Positions 5,001-59,512 of a stretch of DNA of 64,000 nt are shown here, piece after piece; the stretch's first letter is position 1; each line of letters begins with the position of its first letter. Below the pieces are notes generated by a model that ran no database searches, was not told where the DNA came from, and saw only the letters and a list, made by a program, of their open reading frames with translations. Both the position numbers and the translations under genes were made by a program. This DNA comes from Maribellus sp. YY47. Lineage in GTDB: Bacteria; Bacteroidota; Bacteroidia; Bacteroidales; Prolixibacteraceae. The stretch is taken from assembly GCF_023111095.1 (NCBI RefSeq), contig NZ_JALGYW010000018.1, positions 1 through 64,000 on the forward strand, in the 5' to 3' direction.

Positions 5001-5034
5001 GGGTTACCTTTTACACAATAAACGAATAATATAA
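5001..5034 (+). promoter_or_regulatory. Putative ECF-type promoter of the sigma/anti-sigma operon
   Basis: GGGTTACCTTTT (5001-5012), 11 bases, then GAATAATATAA (5024-5034), 6 bases before the sigma ATG. The same 12-mer and GAATA at the same spacing precede the double-glycine peptide gene at 10182-10214. It does not look like the housekeeping TTTG/TAnnTTTG promoter. I infer that it is the promoter recognised by the sigma factor encoded next to it (autoregulation). Confidence 0.55.
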
Positions 5035-5040
5035 TAGAAC

Positions 5041-5628
5041 ATGATAAACTATACGGATGCGCAAATCCTGAAAGGAATCTTAAGGCATGATAATTTAATT
5101 TTACAGTACATCTATAAGCAGTACTATTATAAAGTAAATTATTTCATTAAGAAGAACCAGGGTAGTGAAGATGATGCCAGTGACATTTTTCAGGAAGCCA
5201 TTATCGTGATTTACAGAAAATTAAAGGAAAATGATTTAATTTTCGAAAAGAGTTCTTTTCAAGGCTATTTATTTTCGGTTTGCAGATTTCTATGGTTGAA
5301 GCAACTAGAAAAACGACGGATTGAGAAAGAGAAACTAAATGATTCGTTACCCTACCAGGAAGATATTTACGATGATAATCTGGTAGAATTGGTAGATAAA
5401 AACGAAAAGTACGGTTTATATCAGAAGCATTTTAAAACCCTTAGTTCTGATTGCCAGAAGTTGCTGCAACTATTTTTCGAAAAAGTCTCACTTAAAGAAA
5501 TTGCAAGTATTATGGGATTTAAAACGGAGAAATATGCAAAAACCCGAAAGTTCAAGTGTAAAGAGCTGCTTATAAGAAGAATTAAGCAAGATACAGAATT
5601 TAAAAAAATACTTGAAGATGACACCTAA
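5041..5628 (+). CDS. Sigma-70 family (ECF-like) RNA polymerase sigma factor
   Basis: A 195-residue sigma factor with only regions 2 and 4. Region 2 covers about residues 20-95 (core-binding DASDIFQEAIIVIYRKL at about 46-62) and region 4 about 130-185, with the helix-turn-helix KVSLKEIASIMGFKTEKYAKTRKFKCKELL. Its stop overlaps the start of the next gene by 11 bases, so the two are translationally coupled. The next gene encodes a membrane protein with repeated anti-sigma-like modules, the usual sigma/anti-sigma order. A shared promoter motif suggests that it drives its own operon and the small peptide gene at 10258. It is not closely similar to the sigma factor at 50267-50800. Confidence 0.9.
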   Translation: MINYTDAQILKGILRHDNLILQYIYKQYYYKVNYFIKKNQGSEDDASDIFQEAIIVIYRKLKENDLIFEKSSFQGYLFSVCRFLWLKQLEKRRIEKEKLNDSLPYQEDIYDDNLVELVDKNEKYGLYQKHFKTLSSDCQKLLQLFFEKVSLKEIASIMGFKTEKYAKTRKFKCKELLIRRIKQDTEFKKILEDDT

Positions 5629-7126
5629 AACAGAATTAATTGGACGCATTGAAGACTATTGTTTAGACTTAATGGACGCGCAGCAAAAAATTGAATTCGA
5701 AAAAGAACTGGAATTCGCTCAAGAGCTGAAAGAAGAAGTAGAACTTCATAAAAATCTACAAGCCGCAGTGCTGGAAATGGACGTGTTAAACCTCAAAGGC
5801 AAACTCCAGGAAATTCAGGAGGAAGCAAAGTCAGAGAATCATAAAAACGGTTCATTCGCGTTACTCGAGGATTTAGAAGAAATTCATGAGCTGACAGATG
5901 AATTGACGTTTGAAGAGCTGATTGACAGCTTCGAAGCGTTACCTAAAGTTCATGTTTATCAACATGGAAAGACAAGTAACGAGAATATTCATCATTTCTA
6001 CAAAGAACAGAGTGAAAACAGCGTTGAGGTCAACGGTTTCGATGAAGAATTGAACGGTTTTGACTTTGAAGATATGGAAGGGCTGGAGGAAGCTATTCTG
6101 GAGGCCGATATAATGAACTTCAGGGAAACCCTTCAGCAGGTTGCGAAATCAGTTGAACCACAATATTCTGCCGAAGAAATAGATGAATATTTAAACGGAG
6201 AAATGGGAGACGACATTCTGGCTGAGTTTGAAGCTGAAATGAAGCAAAATAAGCAATTACGTGACGAAGTAAATCTGCACATGGAATTGGAAGCTGCACT
6301 TGGAGAATTTGATGTAATGCAGCTAAGAAACGAAATGAGCAATATCATGGAAGCAGAAACTTCCTGGAATGTAAGTGAAAGCACAATTGAAGACTTTATC
6401 GACGGAATTCTGGAAGAAGACCTGTTGGAAGAGTTTGGTGCTGAATTAAAAGAAAATACTGATCTGATGGCTGAAGTTGCCCTGCGGGAGAATATCAATG
6501 CAGCCATAGGAGAGAAAGATATTATATCGTTACGAGATCGATTGACAGATGCACGCCGAGGAGCTGAAAAGCAAGAAGTAAAATCGATCGTAATGCCACG
6601 ATTCGATGTTCAGTCAACCCGATTCTGGCGGAACAGTGTTGCAATGATCATTGTTTTGATCGGTCTCGCGGGGATTTTAAATACCGGAATGCAGTCGACT
6701 GAAAGAACCTACGACAAATACTTCGAGACTCCTGCATGGGCTTCTGAACGTTCTCTGAGCTCGAGTCTGGACGCCATACAAACGGCAAAGATTTATTTCC
6801 AGCAGTCGGAGTATGATAAAGTGTTGGGAATATTGGAGAATGTAAATCCACAGCAGGACGAAGCGTTTGTGGTTCAATTTTATAAAGGATTAAGTTATCA
6901 GAATTTAAATCAGTTCGACAAAGCAATTCAAGAGTATGGTAAGGTTATAAATCATGGAAATAACCTGTTTGTAGAAGAGGCGGAATGGTACAAATCGCTG
7001 TGTTACCTGAAAGAGAATAAAAAGAGTGAAGCAAGAAATGAGCTCTTGGCAGTAATTGACCGAAAAGGACATTACCAAAAAGATGCAAAAGCAATACTTC
7101 GAAAACTTAAGTACACGTTTAAATAA
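5618..7126 (+). CDS. Putative membrane anti-sigma factor with triplicated cytoplasmic module and periplasmic TPRs
   Basis: 502 residues, starting at ATG 5618 and overlapping the sigma stop by 11 bases. No family name is certain. The N-terminal 315 residues are acidic and contain a 60-residue module three times (about 8-66, 183-245, 253-314), each of the form I-[ED]-[DE]-[YF], a Glu/Leu-rich helix, E-V-x-L-x, A-[AV]-[LI]-x-[EK]-x-D-[VI], L-[KR]-x-[KRE]-[LM]. A fourth half-copy (about 153-176, EEAILEADIMNFRETLQQV) lies in the linker. This helical pattern resembles the N-terminal part of Bacteroidota anti-sigma factors. One membrane helix follows at about 340-357 (VAMIIVLIGLAGILNTG), then a C-terminal TPR region (about 389-498) that would face the periplasm. 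Inference: it holds the sigma factor at the membrane and senses a periplasmic partner, possibly the CHAT protein. Confidence 0.75.
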   Translation: MTPKTELIGRIEDYCLDLMDAQQKIEFEKELEFAQELKEEVELHKNLQAAVLEMDVLNLKGKLQEIQEEAKSENHKNGSFALLEDLEEIHELTDELTFEELIDSFEALPKVHVYQHGKTSNENIHHFYKEQSENSVEVNGFDEELNGFDFEDMEGLEEAILEADIMNFRETLQQVAKSVEPQYSAEEIDEYLNGEMGDDILAEFEAEMKQNKQLRDEVNLHMELEAALGEFDVMQLRNEMSNIMEAETSWNVSESTIEDFIDGILEEDLLEEFGAELKENTDLMAEVALRENINAAIGEKDIISLRDRLTDARRGAEKQEVKSIVMPRFDVQSTRFWRNSVAMIIVLIGLAGILNTGMQSTERTYDKYFETPAWASERSLSSSLDAIQTAKIYFQQSEYDKVLGILENVNPQQDEAFVVQFYKGLSYQNLNQFDKAIQEYGKVINHGNNLFVEEAEWYKSLCYLKENKKSEARNELLAVIDRKGHYQKDAKAILRKLKYTFK

Positions 7127-7161
7127 ATTTTGATCGGTCAAAAGTAGATTGATTCAATTTT

Positions 7162-7252
7162 AAATACACATTCACCTTAAAGATTGAATCGAGAAACAAA
7201 ATCGACATACACATTCAACGGAAATAGATTTATTCGTAAAATACACATTCAC
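7162..7252. repeat. Three copies of a 14-bp repeat (AAATACACATTCAC)
   Basis: AAATACACATTCAC occurs exactly at 7162-7175 and 7239-7252, with a diverged copy (ACATACACATTCAA) at 7205-7218. The last copy overlaps the stop codon of the CHAT gene. A fourth exact copy, inverted, is at 10215-10228. In the sense of the CHAT mRNA they read GTGAATGTGTATTT and lie in its 3' untranslated region. Confidence 0.8.
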
Positions 7253-10122
7253 GAAGCCTGTCTTTTTAGACGGGCTTTTTTGATGCGCACTATTTGATCG
7301 ATGGAGAAAACTAGAATGAGTAGAATAAGAATTCCAAAGAAATAAATGTCATAACTGGTATAGAGAGGGGAATTATCGCCGATGCATTTAAAACTCATCC
7401 AATAGTGAGGATGTGCAAGTCGCGAATTCGAATGATCAAGATATTCTATTTTCGCTAATCGTAATGCTTCGTCTTTGGTTTTTCCTTTTTTTAGATTTTT
7501 GTAAAAGGCAGTCATTATTTCAGTACCTGCCTGATCCTCGACTTCCCACAACGAAACGACTATTGAAGGACAGCCGGCATAAAGAAAACCTCGGGAAAGA
7601 CTCATCAACCCTTCTCCTTTTTGCATTTTACCTACGCCTGTATTACAAGCACTTAATACGGCTAGTCTTGTGTTTCTTAAATTTAGGTTGTAAATGTCAG
7701 CTGTGTTTAGCCAACCGTCTTTGTTCAGCTCTTCATTTGTTGTTTTTGGCATCGGCGAAAACGCAAGTCTCGAAAATGCAGGAAGAGAATCGTTAATGTA
7801 GGCATGCATGGCCAGGTGTAATATGTCGTATTTCTGGCTAAGTTCTCTGAATCGCTCTTCAGTAGCCTCCTGCCCCCTGAAAACATCGGATTTTACCGTG
7901 TTGGCAATAGCATCCACTTCTTTTTGCACACCGGGTAGCGGCATCAAGGTGTAGCGGGCATTCGAAAGCTCAAAGCTCTCTGAATTGTAAACAGGAGCAA
8001 ATGCCAGTGTGCGATTTTTAAGGTGTCGCTTGGTGTTACTGTTCTTAAAGTAAATATTTGCAGAATTTGCATAGTTGATGTTGTAATCCCTGATCAAATA
8101 GTTCAATTTCGAGAAATCAATGACCTGGCTGGTGTCTGGCATTGATTGGATTAAACCGTCAAATGCAATGTAGTTCAGTTGACCGTCGGGTATAACAATG
8201 AGGTCTTTATTTTGGATCACATATTGGAAAGGCTGTATCAGTAAGGTGTATATGTCATTGGCCGACTGGCAGTATAGTTTAGAATCTTGGTTGTGGGTGA
8301 ACAGAAAATTAGGCGTTGTCATGAAATGAAACATGTACTGCAACGACTGCTCTTTTTCTGACGATATATTTTGGCACGTGAAAAATTTGTTGTCCTTGGT
8401 AACAACAAAAGAAAAGAGTTTCGAGGTTGAATCCGTTTGGCTAATAGAGTATTCCAGTATCGCTTCGTTCTTTTTAAGCTTCTTTTGAATATCGTTTATA
8501 CCAAGCATTGACGTAGAATATTTCAGATTGTAGTAATCCGGATATTCTTCTTCCAACAGGCGATTTAGTTCGTTACGTCTTTTCGAGGCCTCAAAAATCT
8601 TACTGTTGTATTCTTCAACTAATTTTGAATCAACGCTATCCTTATTCTGTTCCTCAAATAATTTTTCATTGAAAGTAGATATTGTGCTGTTTAATTTATT
8701 TTCCAATTCTAAAAGTGTGTCTGGTATCAGACTGTTTTGCTGGGCTAAGTCGTTGGATATTTTGTCAAAAACAGCGCTGCTTTTCATCTGTTCAGCATTT
8801 TTGAACGCAAGATTGAGATACTCTTCATCCTGGTTGTGTTCGTATGCCAGATAAGCGGTCTCAATCGCTTTTGAGAATGTTGATGATTCAAGTTTAGCCA
8901 ACTGCAATTTACTTTCATCACTGGAGATTTCCATTCGCGCTCGTTGAATCAAGTTACTGGTTGTTTTATAAAAATTCAGAGCATGATCCAGTGAATTCAG
9001 ATATGACTCATCTTTAGTGTCAGCGTTTAATGTGGCAATTTCAGAGTAAGTATCGGCTATGGCTTTAAGGAGAACTACACAATCGGTGAACGACAAACAA
9101 TTATCTGTGGTAAGATCTTCGATTTTTAATTCATCGTCTTTCTTGTAAAGTGCCTTCAAACTCTCGTTATAAGATTGTACGGCATCTTCCAAATTCCTCT
9201 TTTTTTGCTGTTTAAACGAAAGTACACTTGGAGACTTGACGGGTTTATTTCTTAAGAATTCTGCTTGATACTCATAATATCGAGATAATTCAACCCCTCT
9301 TTTTTTCTGGCTCTTTTGGATGATATCAAATGCCTTATTTAATACGATTAATCCTTCTTCGTATTCCGAAATTCTAGTCAGAAACTCTGAATAGTTAAGA
9401 TAAGTAATGGCTGTTTGTAAATGGTCTTTCCCATAGTATGATTTAACCAAGTCCAAGTTCTTTTCATAATAAAGTTTGGCTAAGCTAATATTGTCTATTT
9501 TTTGGTAAATAATACCTAGTAGTTCTAAATAGTAAATCCTGTTAAAAGTGTCTGCTTCGTCCTTGTATTTATTTAATATCTCAAGTGCTTTGTTGAATTC
9601 TTTTGTTAAGCTATAAATTTCTGCGATAGCATAATTTGCATCATAGATGTCTTCATACTCAATTGTTTCTTGATTTAAGAATATCGTTAGCGCTTGATTA
9701 AAATAATGTAAGGCATTATTATAGTCAAGTTTTGCTCTGTATACGTTTCCGATGTTCCTATATAGCCTGCCAAGATTTATTAAATTGGAATCGTTGCGTA
9801 ATAGGTAATTGCGTTCTGCGACTTCATAAAATTGAAGAGCTTTCTCATTTTGACCTTGAGCTTTGTAAGAGATGCCAATCGCTAAATAAACTTGGGCTAA
9901 AAAATAATTTTGTTCACCGTAAATTTTTTTTCGATAAGCTAAACTTAGTTTAAAAGAATCCAATGCATCAGAATATCTACCTTCGGCATGAAGAGTATAT
10001 CCAGAACGAAGTAAGTTGTTGGCTTTCATTCGGGATGTCGTGATGCTGTCGGTCTGCCCATAGAGAAAAATTGGGAGAAGAAGCAAACAAAAGATTAGGT
10101 GAACTTTCTCTTTTTTGAGCAT
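7249..10122 (-). CDS. Membrane-anchored TPR-CHAT protease
   Basis: 957 residues. A signal peptide (about 1-22, ending LYGQ) leads into TPR repeats (about 32-290; clear units near 32-65, 77-105, 118-150), a helical/coiled-coil region (about 460-530), and a CHAT domain (about 640-915) of the caspase/separase-like clan CD fold. The predicted catalytic pair is His773 in ILHLAMHAY and Cys826 in LAVLSACNTGVG, both intact. A C-terminal membrane helix (about 925-943) and a basic tail (RIKKARLKRQAS) follow, placing the protease in the periplasm, anchored to the inner membrane. CHAT proteases cut specific partner proteins; here the natural candidates are the TPR anti-sigma protein (5618-7126) and the GG peptide (10258-10410). 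Promoter TTTG-N20-TATCTTG lies at 10176-10146. Confidence 0.93.
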   Translation of the reverse strand: MLKKEKVHLIFCLLLLPIFLYGQTDSITTSRMKANNLLRSGYTLHAEGRYSDALDSFKLSLAYRKKIYGEQNYFLAQVYLAIGISYKAQGQNEKALQFYEVAERNYLLRNDSNLINLGRLYRNIGNVYRAKLDYNNALHYFNQALTIFLNQETIEYEDIYDANYAIAEIYSLTKEFNKALEILNKYKDEADTFNRIYYLELLGIIYQKIDNISLAKLYYEKNLDLVKSYYGKDHLQTAITYLNYSEFLTRISEYEEGLIVLNKAFDIIQKSQKKRGVELSRYYEYQAEFLRNKPVKSPSVLSFKQQKKRNLEDAVQSYNESLKALYKKDDELKIEDLTTDNCLSFTDCVVLLKAIADTYSEIATLNADTKDESYLNSLDHALNFYKTTSNLIQRARMEISSDESKLQLAKLESSTFSKAIETAYLAYEHNQDEEYLNLAFKNAEQMKSSAVFDKISNDLAQQNSLIPDTLLELENKLNSTISTFNEKLFEEQNKDSVDSKLVEEYNSKIFEASKRRNELNRLLEEEYPDYYNLKYSTSMLGINDIQKKLKKNEAILEYSISQTDSTSKLFSFVVTKDNKFFTCQNISSEKEQSLQYMFHFMTTPNFLFTHNQDSKLYCQSANDIYTLLIQPFQYVIQNKDLIVIPDGQLNYIAFDGLIQSMPDTSQVIDFSKLNYLIRDYNINYANSANIYFKNSNTKRHLKNRTLAFAPVYNSESFELSNARYTLMPLPGVQKEVDAIANTVKSDVFRGQEATEERFRELSQKYDILHLAMHAYINDSLPAFSRLAFSPMPKTTNEELNKDGWLNTADIYNLNLRNTRLAVLSACNTGVGKMQKGEGLMSLSRGFLYAGCPSIVVSLWEVEDQAGTEIMTAFYKNLKKGKTKDEALRLAKIEYLDHSNSRLAHPHYWMSFKCIGDNSPLYTSYDIYFFGILILLILVFSIDQIVRIKKARLKRQAS
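7254..7281 (+). terminator. Terminator of the sigma/anti-sigma operon, inside the CHAT gene end
   Basis: AAGCCTGTCT (7254-7263) pairs with AGACGGGCTT (7268-7277) around TTTT, and a T run follows to 7281. It lies within the last codons of the convergent CHAT gene, so the two transcripts overlap at their 3' ends. Confidence 0.85.
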
Positions 10123-10145
10123 TTTTTGAATGTGATTTACATTGG

Positions 10146-10176
10146 CAAGATAAAAGAATTTTAATTTTTCTTCAAA
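10146..10176 (-). promoter_or_regulatory. Housekeeping-type promoter of the CHAT gene
   Basis: On the minus strand TTTG (10176-10173) is followed after 20 bases by TATCTTG (10152-10146), one T short of TAnnTTTG. It gives a leader of about 17 bases before the ATG at 10122. It lies back to back with the ECF-like promoter of the peptide gene (10182 onward). Confidence 0.55.
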
Positions 10177-10181
10177 GAGGG

Positions 10182-10214
10182 GGGTTACCTTTTTTGCCTT
10201 TTCAGAATATATAA
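10182..10214 (+). promoter_or_regulatory. Putative ECF-type promoter of the GG-peptide gene
   Basis: GGGTTACCTTTT (10182-10193), 11 bases, then GAATATATAA (10205-10214). The 12-mer and GAATA have exactly the same spacing as upstream of the sigma gene (5001, 5024). It lies 44 bases before the peptide ATG. Confidence 0.55.
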
Positions 10215-10228
10215 GTGAATGTGTATTT
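10215..10228. repeat. Inverted copy of the 14-bp repeat, at the peptide promoter
   Basis: GTGAATGTGTATTT is the exact reverse complement of the repeats at 7162-7175 and 7239-7252. It directly follows the putative -10 element, close to the expected transcription start of the peptide gene. A partial copy (TTGAATGTGATTT) lies at 10126-10138 in the CHAT leader. Confidence 0.75.
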
Positions 10229-10257
10229 AAAAAATTAACGAATTAATCTATTTTATC

Positions 10258-10410
10258 ATGAAAAGGGTACTGGGACAAACAACTGAAAACACTTTTGCTA
10301 ACTTCAATTTTGACGTTTTGACTACAGAAGAAATGAGAACCTTAAAAGGTGGTGATGAGTCAAGACCAAAATCAAGAGATAAAGACGTTTTCGATACAAT
10401 TGAAGGATAA
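10258..10410 (+). CDS. Small double-glycine leader peptide (GG-Bacteroidales type)
   Basis: 50 residues. The N-terminal part ends in FDVLTTEEMRTLKGG (about residues 18-32), which matches the Bacteroidales double-glycine precursor pattern (L-[ST]-x-E-E-M-x-x-[IL]-K-G-G, as in TIGR04149-like natural product precursors). After GG comes an 18-residue, very polar segment (DESRPKSRDKDVFDTIEG) without cysteines. No C39 transporter, radical SAM enzyme or other maturase lies in the window. It is divergent from the CHAT protease gene and shares a promoter element with the sigma gene. The core holds DESR, which fits an acidic-x-x-Arg site of the kind cut by separase-like proteases; that link is inference. 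It could be a secreted signal, a substrate of the CHAT protease, or a bacteriocin-like product. Confidence 0.8.
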   Translation: MKRVLGQTTENTFANFNFDVLTTEEMRTLKGGDESRPKSRDKDVFDTIEG

Positions 10411-10545
10411 TTCTTCAAATCATAAGCTGTTTTATTTTTATTGTCTTATAGGATAAAGTATCCTTGTTTAACTATGATTAATACGTTTTTTTAATTTAGG
10501 AAGAAGAGTAGCCTATATACAGAACCAATTAAGTTGTTAGTACAG

Positions 10546-10577
10546 GGGGTTAAGACGCAACGTTTTAAACCCCTTTT
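10546..10577 (+). terminator. Probable terminator after the GG-peptide gene
   Basis: GGGGTT (10546-10551) pairs with AACCCC (10568-10573), followed by TTTT. A weaker hairpin (AGGATA/TATCCT, 10450-10464) lies closer to the stop codon. Confidence 0.5.
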
Positions 10578-10594
10578 GGTTTGATTAATTCAGC

Positions 10595-59477: not shown

Positions 59478-59512
59478 ACTATAAAGTACGGGAAATCGCG
59501 AAAAGGTAACCC
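59478..59512 (-). promoter_or_regulatory. Third copy of the ECF-like promoter motif
   Basis: GGGTTACCTTTT on the minus strand (59512-59501) is identical to 5001-5012 and 10182-10193. At the position of GAATA (23 bases on) it has GTACT, and further on TATAGTG, which resembles TATAAGTG at 10208-10217. So the -35-like part is exact and the -10-like part is partial. Confidence 0.4.

Follow-up and report, generated by a model that had tools for sequence, protein, structure and literature searches.

A conserved Bacteroidota gene set of sigma factor, membrane anti-sigma, TPR-CHAT protein and double-glycine peptide that looks like an undescribed signalling circuit

The first protease of the RseA/DegS/RseP sigma-E pathway is a PDZ serine protease, and Gram-positive bacteria are known for signalling by peptides with a double-glycine (GG) leader and for peptide receptors made of tetratricopeptide repeats (TPR), the Rap/RRNPP proteins; to our knowledge, few peptide-signalling circuits are known in Bacteroidota. 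The nearest precedent for the locus considered here is Craspase (Csx29/Csx30/CASP-sigma), in which an extracytoplasmic function (ECF) sigma factor is inhibited by Csx30, and Csx30 in turn is cut by the TPR-CHAT protease Csx29 (PMC10028731). The locus comprises four genes in a 64,000-nucleotide stretch of Maribellus sp. YY47 (RefSeq assembly GCF_023111095.1, contig NZ_JALGYW010000018.1, positions 1 to 64,000 of the forward strand; hereafter the window), which code for an ECF-type sigma factor, a predicted membrane anti-sigma protein, a TPR-CHAT protein and a GG peptide. This conserved Bacteroidota gene set looks like an undescribed signalling circuit. We give about an even chance to its being a regulated-proteolysis switch, in which the CHAT protein would cut the anti-sigma and free the sigma factor, which would then make itself and an exported, genome-specific peptide.

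As far as the available text of PMC10028731 describes it, Craspase resembles the module in having a TPR-CHAT protease, an inhibitor protein and an ECF-type sigma factor with predicted sites in its own locus. However, it is the binding of target RNA to Cas7-11 that activates the Craspase protease (PMC10028731), whereas the module of the window has a membrane CHAT protein of predicted periplasmic location, a membrane anti-sigma and a GG peptide. The opinion of the first-pass annotation that this set-up is foreign to known CHAT systems thus has to be narrowed: the combination of CHAT protease, inhibitor and sigma factor is already present in Craspase, while the membrane anti-sigma, the periplasmic placing and the peptide differ. 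With the sigma-E pathway, as named in the same source, the module shares a membrane anti-sigma that is probably first cut outside the membrane, although the first protease would here be a TPR-CHAT cysteine protease. Likeness to the Gram-positive systems comprises the GG leader, a C39 exporter gene in the genome, TPRs as possible peptide readers and one core per genome, and Rap3T was among the TPR matches in a solved-structure search (best 60 of 184); the module differs in its Gram-negative phylum, in the periplasmic protease as putative reader and in sigma/anti-sigma as predicted output. The leader pattern is also similar to that of TIGR04149, the radical S-adenosylmethionine-modified GG peptides, although the score of 16.7 (0.0052) stays under the cut-off of 25. 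Clusters of ribosomally synthesized and post-translationally modified peptides have been mined in Bacteroidales, in a paper whose available main text does not contain the word sigma (PMC10352776). Among the open papers searched, 'CHAT domain', 'sigma factor' and 'anti-sigma' occurred together only in PMC10028731, and nothing was retrieved on a CHAT domain with periplasm and Bacteroidetes or on a CHAT protease with sigma and operon.

The features of the module are given below in window coordinates.

5001..5028, plus strand: sigma-type promoter of the sigma/anti-sigma operon, GGGTTACCTTTT, 11-nucleotide (nt) spacer, GAATA (pattern search)
5041..5628, plus strand: ECF-type sigma factor, 195 aa (profile matches)
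5618..7126, plus strand: membrane anti-sigma with three predicted cytosolic modules and a half module, one membrane segment and predicted periplasmic TPRs (open reading frame, hydropathy)
6635..6691, plus strand: membrane segment of the anti-sigma, residues 342-360, numbered from TTG 5612 (hydropathy)
6710..6751, plus strand: conserved stretch Y ... Y/F-Y/F ... R-S, residues 367-380, just past the membrane segment (alignment)
7158..7252, plus strand: 3' tail of the anti-sigma gene, holding three copies antisense to a section of the peptide mRNA leader (complementarity)
7249..10122, minus strand: TPR-CHAT protein, 957 aa, with signal-peptide-like N-terminus, TPRs and CHAT domain (profiles, hydropathy)
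7291-7347, minus strand: C-terminal membrane segment of the CHAT protein (hydropathy)
7375-8265, minus strand: CHAT domain (CHAT profile, 3.5e-60)
7645..7647, minus strand: codon of the predicted catalytic Cys826 (36/36 aligned)
7804..7806, minus strand: codon of the predicted catalytic His773 (36/36 aligned)
10182..10209, plus strand: sigma-type promoter of the peptide gene (pattern search)
10206..10257, plus strand: leader region of the peptide mRNA to which the antisense copies are complementary, predicted extent (complementarity)
10258..10410, plus strand: GG peptide gene, 50 aa, leader end LKGG (open reading frame)
10258..10353, plus strand: peptide leader, 32 residues with Gly-Gly end (open reading frame, relatives)
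10354..10410, plus strand: peptide core DESRPKSRDKDVFDTIEG and stop (open reading frame)

The compact four-gene unit described in the first-pass annotation proved to consist of real genes at the predicted positions and to be conserved across the family, the nearest named loci being those of Maribellus and Draconibacterium (Prolixibacteraceae). The sigma factor is placed among the ECF sigma factors by its matches to TIGR02937 (9.4e-15, 54.6 bits, cut-off 42.9) and to the region 2 profile Sigma70_r2 (1.5e-05, 25.2 bits, cut-off 24), and is 62-98% identical to 12 relatives. The exact promoter element, GGTTACCTTTT followed by a spacer of 9-13 nt and GAATA, was found at two sites only in the 5.04 Mb genome, in front of the sigma operon and of the peptide gene, against none for the reversed control; the two matches in the window compare with none in 100 shuffles, which puts the promoter sharing noticed in the first-pass annotation beyond chance. 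When three mismatches were allowed, 29 genome sites (one of them with a single mismatch) stood against 15 for the control, hence weaker sites are inseparable from noise. A similar pattern was present in 83 of 140 family genomes, with one match of the reversed control across all 140. Of 38 family loci, 33 had the -35 element upstream of sigma, one of them with a base change; the first peptide had it upstream in all 32 of 32, with a base change in two. Among the five loci whose sigma gene is devoid of it (L067-L070 and L072; L-numbers label fetched loci or contig pieces from the compared genomes), L068-L070 and L072 have the anti-sigma downstream of the peptide, under the peptide's promoter, and L067 carries a GGTCACC variant upstream of both peptide and anti-sigma. 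No element was detected within about 340 nt upstream of any of 51 CHAT genes. This placement across loci suggests that peptide and anti-sigma are under this promoter, directly or via sigma, and that CHAT is not. Since the promoter is common to both and stands family-wide before the operon and before its target, transcription of both the sigma operon and the peptide gene is very likely driven by the sigma factor itself, as had been proposed.

In another genus of the family, up to seven promoter sites per genome were observed. The extra sites, from 30 site loci that were read, lie upstream of genes for secreted proteins, lipoproteins and a 73-aa protein (L077, L079, L080, L082, L084, L087-L089, L092 and L094-L096), and also of one TPR protein. 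One of the secreted proteins resembles CarboxypepD_reg below the cut-off (0.015), one lipoprotein matches DUF4848 (3.9e-09), and the 73-aa protein ends KKTLFHESQ-like and belongs to no accepted family. On the minus strand of the window, another GGGTTACCTTTT at 59485-59512 is without a matching -10 and is probably due to chance. The one-mismatch promoter at L335:1501-1528 (own genome, contig 48) is followed about 45 nt downstream by a GC-rich hairpin and a T run, a possible terminator region or short RNA.

The open reading frame of the anti-sigma opens at TTG 5612; ATG 5618, 11 nt inside the sigma gene, is preferred as the likelier start because of this overlap. The triplicated modules are true repeats, each of the pairs M1-M2, M1-M3 and M2-M3 scoring above all 500 shuffles, and a fourth half module accompanies them, which exceeded all 500 shuffles against M1 only (36 and 24 of 500 reached its scores against M2 and M3). 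A role as sigma inhibitor is predicted; the gene overlaps that of sigma, and the anti-sigma model NF052375 is matched weakly (26.2 bits, cut-off 100). In the phylum-wide alignment, the stretch at residues 367-380, which precedes the TPRs, has Arg in 49 of 63 sequences and the next Ser in 43 of 63, and our guess is that this may be the CHAT recognition or cut site.

The CHAT protein carries TPR_12 (4.8e-24) and a caspase-like CHAT peptidase domain in which the His773/Cys826 pair, reported as intact by the first-pass annotation, is present in 36 of 36 aligned proteins, window included, after exclusion of four partial CHAT reads by length (L041, L056, L065, L066). Hydropathy analysis revealed one membrane segment in the anti-sigma, and one N-terminal and one C-terminal segment in the CHAT protein. 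Such a pattern fits the supposed periplasmic location of the TPR regions and the CHAT domain, and falls short of proving it. Cleavage of the anti-sigma by the CHAT protein is plausible by analogy, as Craspase shows that action of a TPR-CHAT protease on a sigma inhibitor is possible (PMC10028731). In two records of metagenome-assembled genomes (MAGs; L215:8203-10795 and L216:12098-14998) the CHAT gene is in two frames, by sequencing error or as a broken gene.

The anti-sigma was detected in 103 of 140 family genomes and, by profile search, in 116 of 295 genomes of the order and 75 of 345 of the phylum, the listed matches outside the family covering mainly the last module, the membrane segment and the TPRs, mostly in frames of ~250 aa. 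The order sigma, anti-sigma and convergent CHAT was present in 32 of 40 fetched family loci, and four loci (L068-L070, L072) have the order sigma, CHAT, anti-sigma; in the remaining ones CHAT lies apart (L073), sigma (L074) or CHAT (L075) is missing from the piece, or the genes are rearranged (L076). When order and phylum loci were anchored on the anti-sigma, all three genes were in the fetched piece in 30 of 40 and CHAT in 33 of 40, some misses being short contigs; a strict count gave 27 of 40 with profiles trained on the same loci. For the view from CHAT, 40 matches across the phylum were hand-picked down the ranked list rather than drawn at random; a sigma gene was located no more than 5 kb away in 19 of them and an anti-sigma gene in 18, the full triad satisfied the strict rule in 13 (8 of 40 with narrower profiles), and 10 of the 13 best-ranked CHAT matches were without the sigma/anti-sigma pair. 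The conserved co-occurrence anticipated in the first-pass annotation is therefore seen from the anti-sigma side and more weakly from the CHAT side: the linkage holds for this CHAT arrangement rather than for CHAT genes generally, and the low CHAT-anchored counts imply other uses of CHAT genes, the triad being one arrangement.

The peptide has the GG end and the usual hydrophobic/acidic pattern of GG leaders, with family models under their cut-offs (TIGR04149 as above; Bacteriocin_IIc 0.034), and its core is short and acidic (net charge -2). A regular expression recognised GG peptides in 31 of 34 family loci, and tblastn recovered those of the three others (L040, L061, L071). Among 80 named loci, 65 had CHAT, 51 of which carried a GG-type frame on the opposite strand. 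Outside the family, with an expression confined to ATG starts, peptides were accepted in 9 of 20 order-level loci; hits including L168, L176 and L181, and all phylum-level hits (L194, L201), were set aside as chance or as parts of other genes.

Furthermore, tandem copies of the peptide share their core within a genome. In Draconibacterium-type genomes with three copies (11 of 14; L044, L046 and L048 had fewer than three recognised copies), mean core identity was 0.97 within and 0.79 between genomes, whereas for the leaders it was 0.52 within and 0.72 between at the same position. None of 500 shuffles reached the within-genome core identity; the leader value likewise beat all 500, so that relatedness has an effect. 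In six Marinifilum genomes core identity was 0.98 within and 0.67 between. Counted in equal-length pairs only, Draconibacterium-type core codons showed 105 silent and 35 replacement differences among 499 compared within genomes, against 203 and 481 of 2016 between genomes at the same position; the respective counts in Marinifilum were 69 and 8 of 408 within, and 191 and 168 of 516 between. Recent copying alone is insufficient, because so many silent differences remain within genomes; the pattern fits selection for one core per genome, to which gene conversion possibly contributes.

The cores of relatives have no Lys, Arg or Asp in common (Prolixibacter QVGTVLAPGGTILQ; L259 YGIPVPIIINE), which makes it unlikely that the CHAT protein cuts the peptide, one of the two cleavages proposed in the first-pass annotation, and the genome has a C39-ABC exporter gene. 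C39-ABC transporters are described in the available text of PMC6363468 as the type that cuts GG leaders. The gene is the sole C39 match in the genome, unlinked to the module and beside an HlyD-family gene (L332:5163-9163, own genome, contig 3), which makes the pair a candidate peptide exporter; no GG peptide frames were noticed around it when the list of open reading frames was inspected by eye. A locus outside the family (L174:2540-3458) has four tandem GG peptides next to a CHAT gene, with cores all ending YPTIDGDFDYWPEPEV.

A new element of the module is the complementarity between the region just after the anti-sigma gene and the leader of the peptide mRNA. The first antisense copy (7158-7175) is complementary to 10215-10232 at 18 of 18 positions; a hairpin predicted here (stem 7149-7161/7180-7192) has the core of this copy in its loop. 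By duplex energy, 32 of 38 Prolixibacteraceae-type loci beat all 200 dinucleotide shuffles (25 of 30 with the gene order of the window and 7 of 8 with the other order), and local alignment against shuffles gave p <=0.01 in 19 of 36 loci and in none of six Marinifilum loci. In the eight loci that have the anti-sigma behind the peptide, complementarity was found after the anti-sigma in 8 of 8 (p 0.005), with hardly any at the sigma/CHAT junction (best p 0.025), as judged by mononucleotide shuffles. There are two dissimilar kinds of leader, which score 17-29 against tails of the same kind in 13 of 14 loci (11.0 in L253) and at most 11.5 against tails of the other. On its own the window's tail does not fold with exceptional stability (z -1.03; 26 of 200 shuffles equally stable), and for this reason the RNA claim rests on complementarity. 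Over 5.95 kb no known RNA family reached its gathering score, and the consensus fold of four leaders contained no compensatory change. We read the element as pairing of the anti-sigma mRNA tail with the peptide mRNA leader, assuming that the tail is transcribed.

As suggested by the combined data, the ECF-type sigma factor would be kept bound by the membrane anti-sigma, while the TPR-CHAT protease would be held in the inner membrane, turned towards the periplasm, and be expressed independently of the sigma promoter. An activating ligand on the TPR part would cause the CHAT domain to cleave the anti-sigma close to the periplasmic face of the membrane, possibly in the vicinity of the conserved Tyr/Arg stretch, and further proteolysis would set the sigma factor free to transcribe the GG peptide gene and also its own operon, by which the lock would be re-armed. 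The peptide would be cut at Gly-Gly and exported by the C39-ABC transporter, and would most likely serve in feedback or cell-to-cell signalling as a cognate ligand, specific to each genome, for the TPR side in the periplasm, a role favoured by the finding of one core per genome. The anti-sigma mRNA tail would pair with the peptide mRNA leader, reaching in the window to 4 nt before the start codon, and thereby tune peptide output. We infer the topology (from hydropathy), binding, cleavage, ligand role, export route and RNA effect in this scheme, and sequence does not tell whether the peptide acts as activator, inhibitor or effector. Somewhat more tentative is a wider proposal of peptide communication in Gram-negative bacteria, in which an exported, genome-specific GG peptide would be read by periplasmic TPR-CHAT, followed by anti-sigma cutting and braked by antisense RNA, the peptide-free triad representing an older, phylum-wide core. 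If true, CHAT proteases would gain a widespread chromosomal role beyond CRISPR and cell death, Bacteroidota would provide a testable peptide-signalling circuit, and an mRNA tail would act on the mRNA of its own pathway's peptide.

Several results weigh against this scheme. No GG peptide was accepted by regular expression in 20 phylum-level loci, so that the peptide is dispensable for the core switch. A partial Mantel scan of the core against sequence windows in 25 genomes (26 less one without controls) gave a weak and unspecific signal, with correlations up to 0.37 in the CHAT TPRs and 0.43 in the cytosolic anti-sigma, and no site-specific co-variation of core with CHAT. Almost every genome of the genus carries C39 genes (36 of 37), among them 5 of the 6 in which no anti-sigma was detected. 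By duplex energy the antisense tail beat all shuffles in none of six Marinifilum loci, was missing from L052, L062, L063, L230 and L235, and was weak in L253, where 7 of 200 shuffles were as good. Solved-structure searches yielded no Csx29 chains among the best 60 of 184 matches, nor among 2 of 2 or 3 of 3 in the others. Finally, with only two clear promoters, a pure autoinducer loop would be left without other obvious output in this genome.

The scarcity of promoters, leaving the peptide as the sole obvious product, speaks for a less probable alternative in which the peptide is the output, an antimicrobial or interference peptide exported when the CHAT protein senses envelope trouble, with identical tandem copies serving as dose. 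The shared core of the tandem copies and the resemblance to Bacteriocin_IIc and TIGR04149, both below cut-off, agree with it; however, the window core is short and acidic, the next conserved gene lies 184 nt beyond the peptide stop in the window, which leaves little space for an immunity gene, and a core that is uniform within each genome and changes rapidly from species to species would better suit a cognate partner. We consider it unlikely that the peptide, once produced through active sigma, closes the switch as a feedback inhibitor by blocking the CHAT protein as pseudosubstrate or TPR ligand. Peptide and not CHAT being under the sigma promoter would suit such a role, and the acidic-then-hydrophobic tendency seen by eye in many cores could suit one pocket, but C39 export seems wasteful for a purely internal inhibitor.

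Least probable among the alternatives is that the CHAT protein does not act on the anti-sigma at all, the genes being neighbours through inherited synteny and sigma being released by other proteases. CHAT is indeed often found without the pair (triads in 13 of 40 by the strict rule; no pair in 10 of the 13 best-ranked matches), yet 33 of the 40 pieces fetched across the phylum with the anti-sigma as anchor contain CHAT, and the linkage persists while the order varies. Improbable, too, is a role of the leader/tail complementarity at the DNA level, as phase-inversion repeats or mobile-cassette ends instead of RNA pairing. The copies do form inverted repeats, flanking CHAT in the window and flanking peptide and anti-sigma in the other gene order. 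However, the element moves with the 3' end of the anti-sigma in 8 of 8 loci, leader types match tails of their own type (17-29 in 13 of 14 loci, L253 11.0) and not those of the other (at most 11.5), and CHAT after the sigma/anti-sigma pair is always convergent and never flipped (32 of 32 and 38 of 38, in overlapping sets), for which reason DNA inversion is not favoured.

The identity of the module as an anti-phage defence system was dropped, as PADLOC models gave no match at 0.01 to the four proteins. Seven loci from elsewhere in the phylum with high-ranked CHAT (L292, L293, L296, L297, L299, L302, L303) have no detected sigma or anti-sigma in the fetched piece and represent a different CHAT context. 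Prolixibacteraceae-like modules were also observed in L269, titled a Chitinophaga pinensis MAG, and in L234, a Chlorobiota MAG, which are perhaps misnamed bins.

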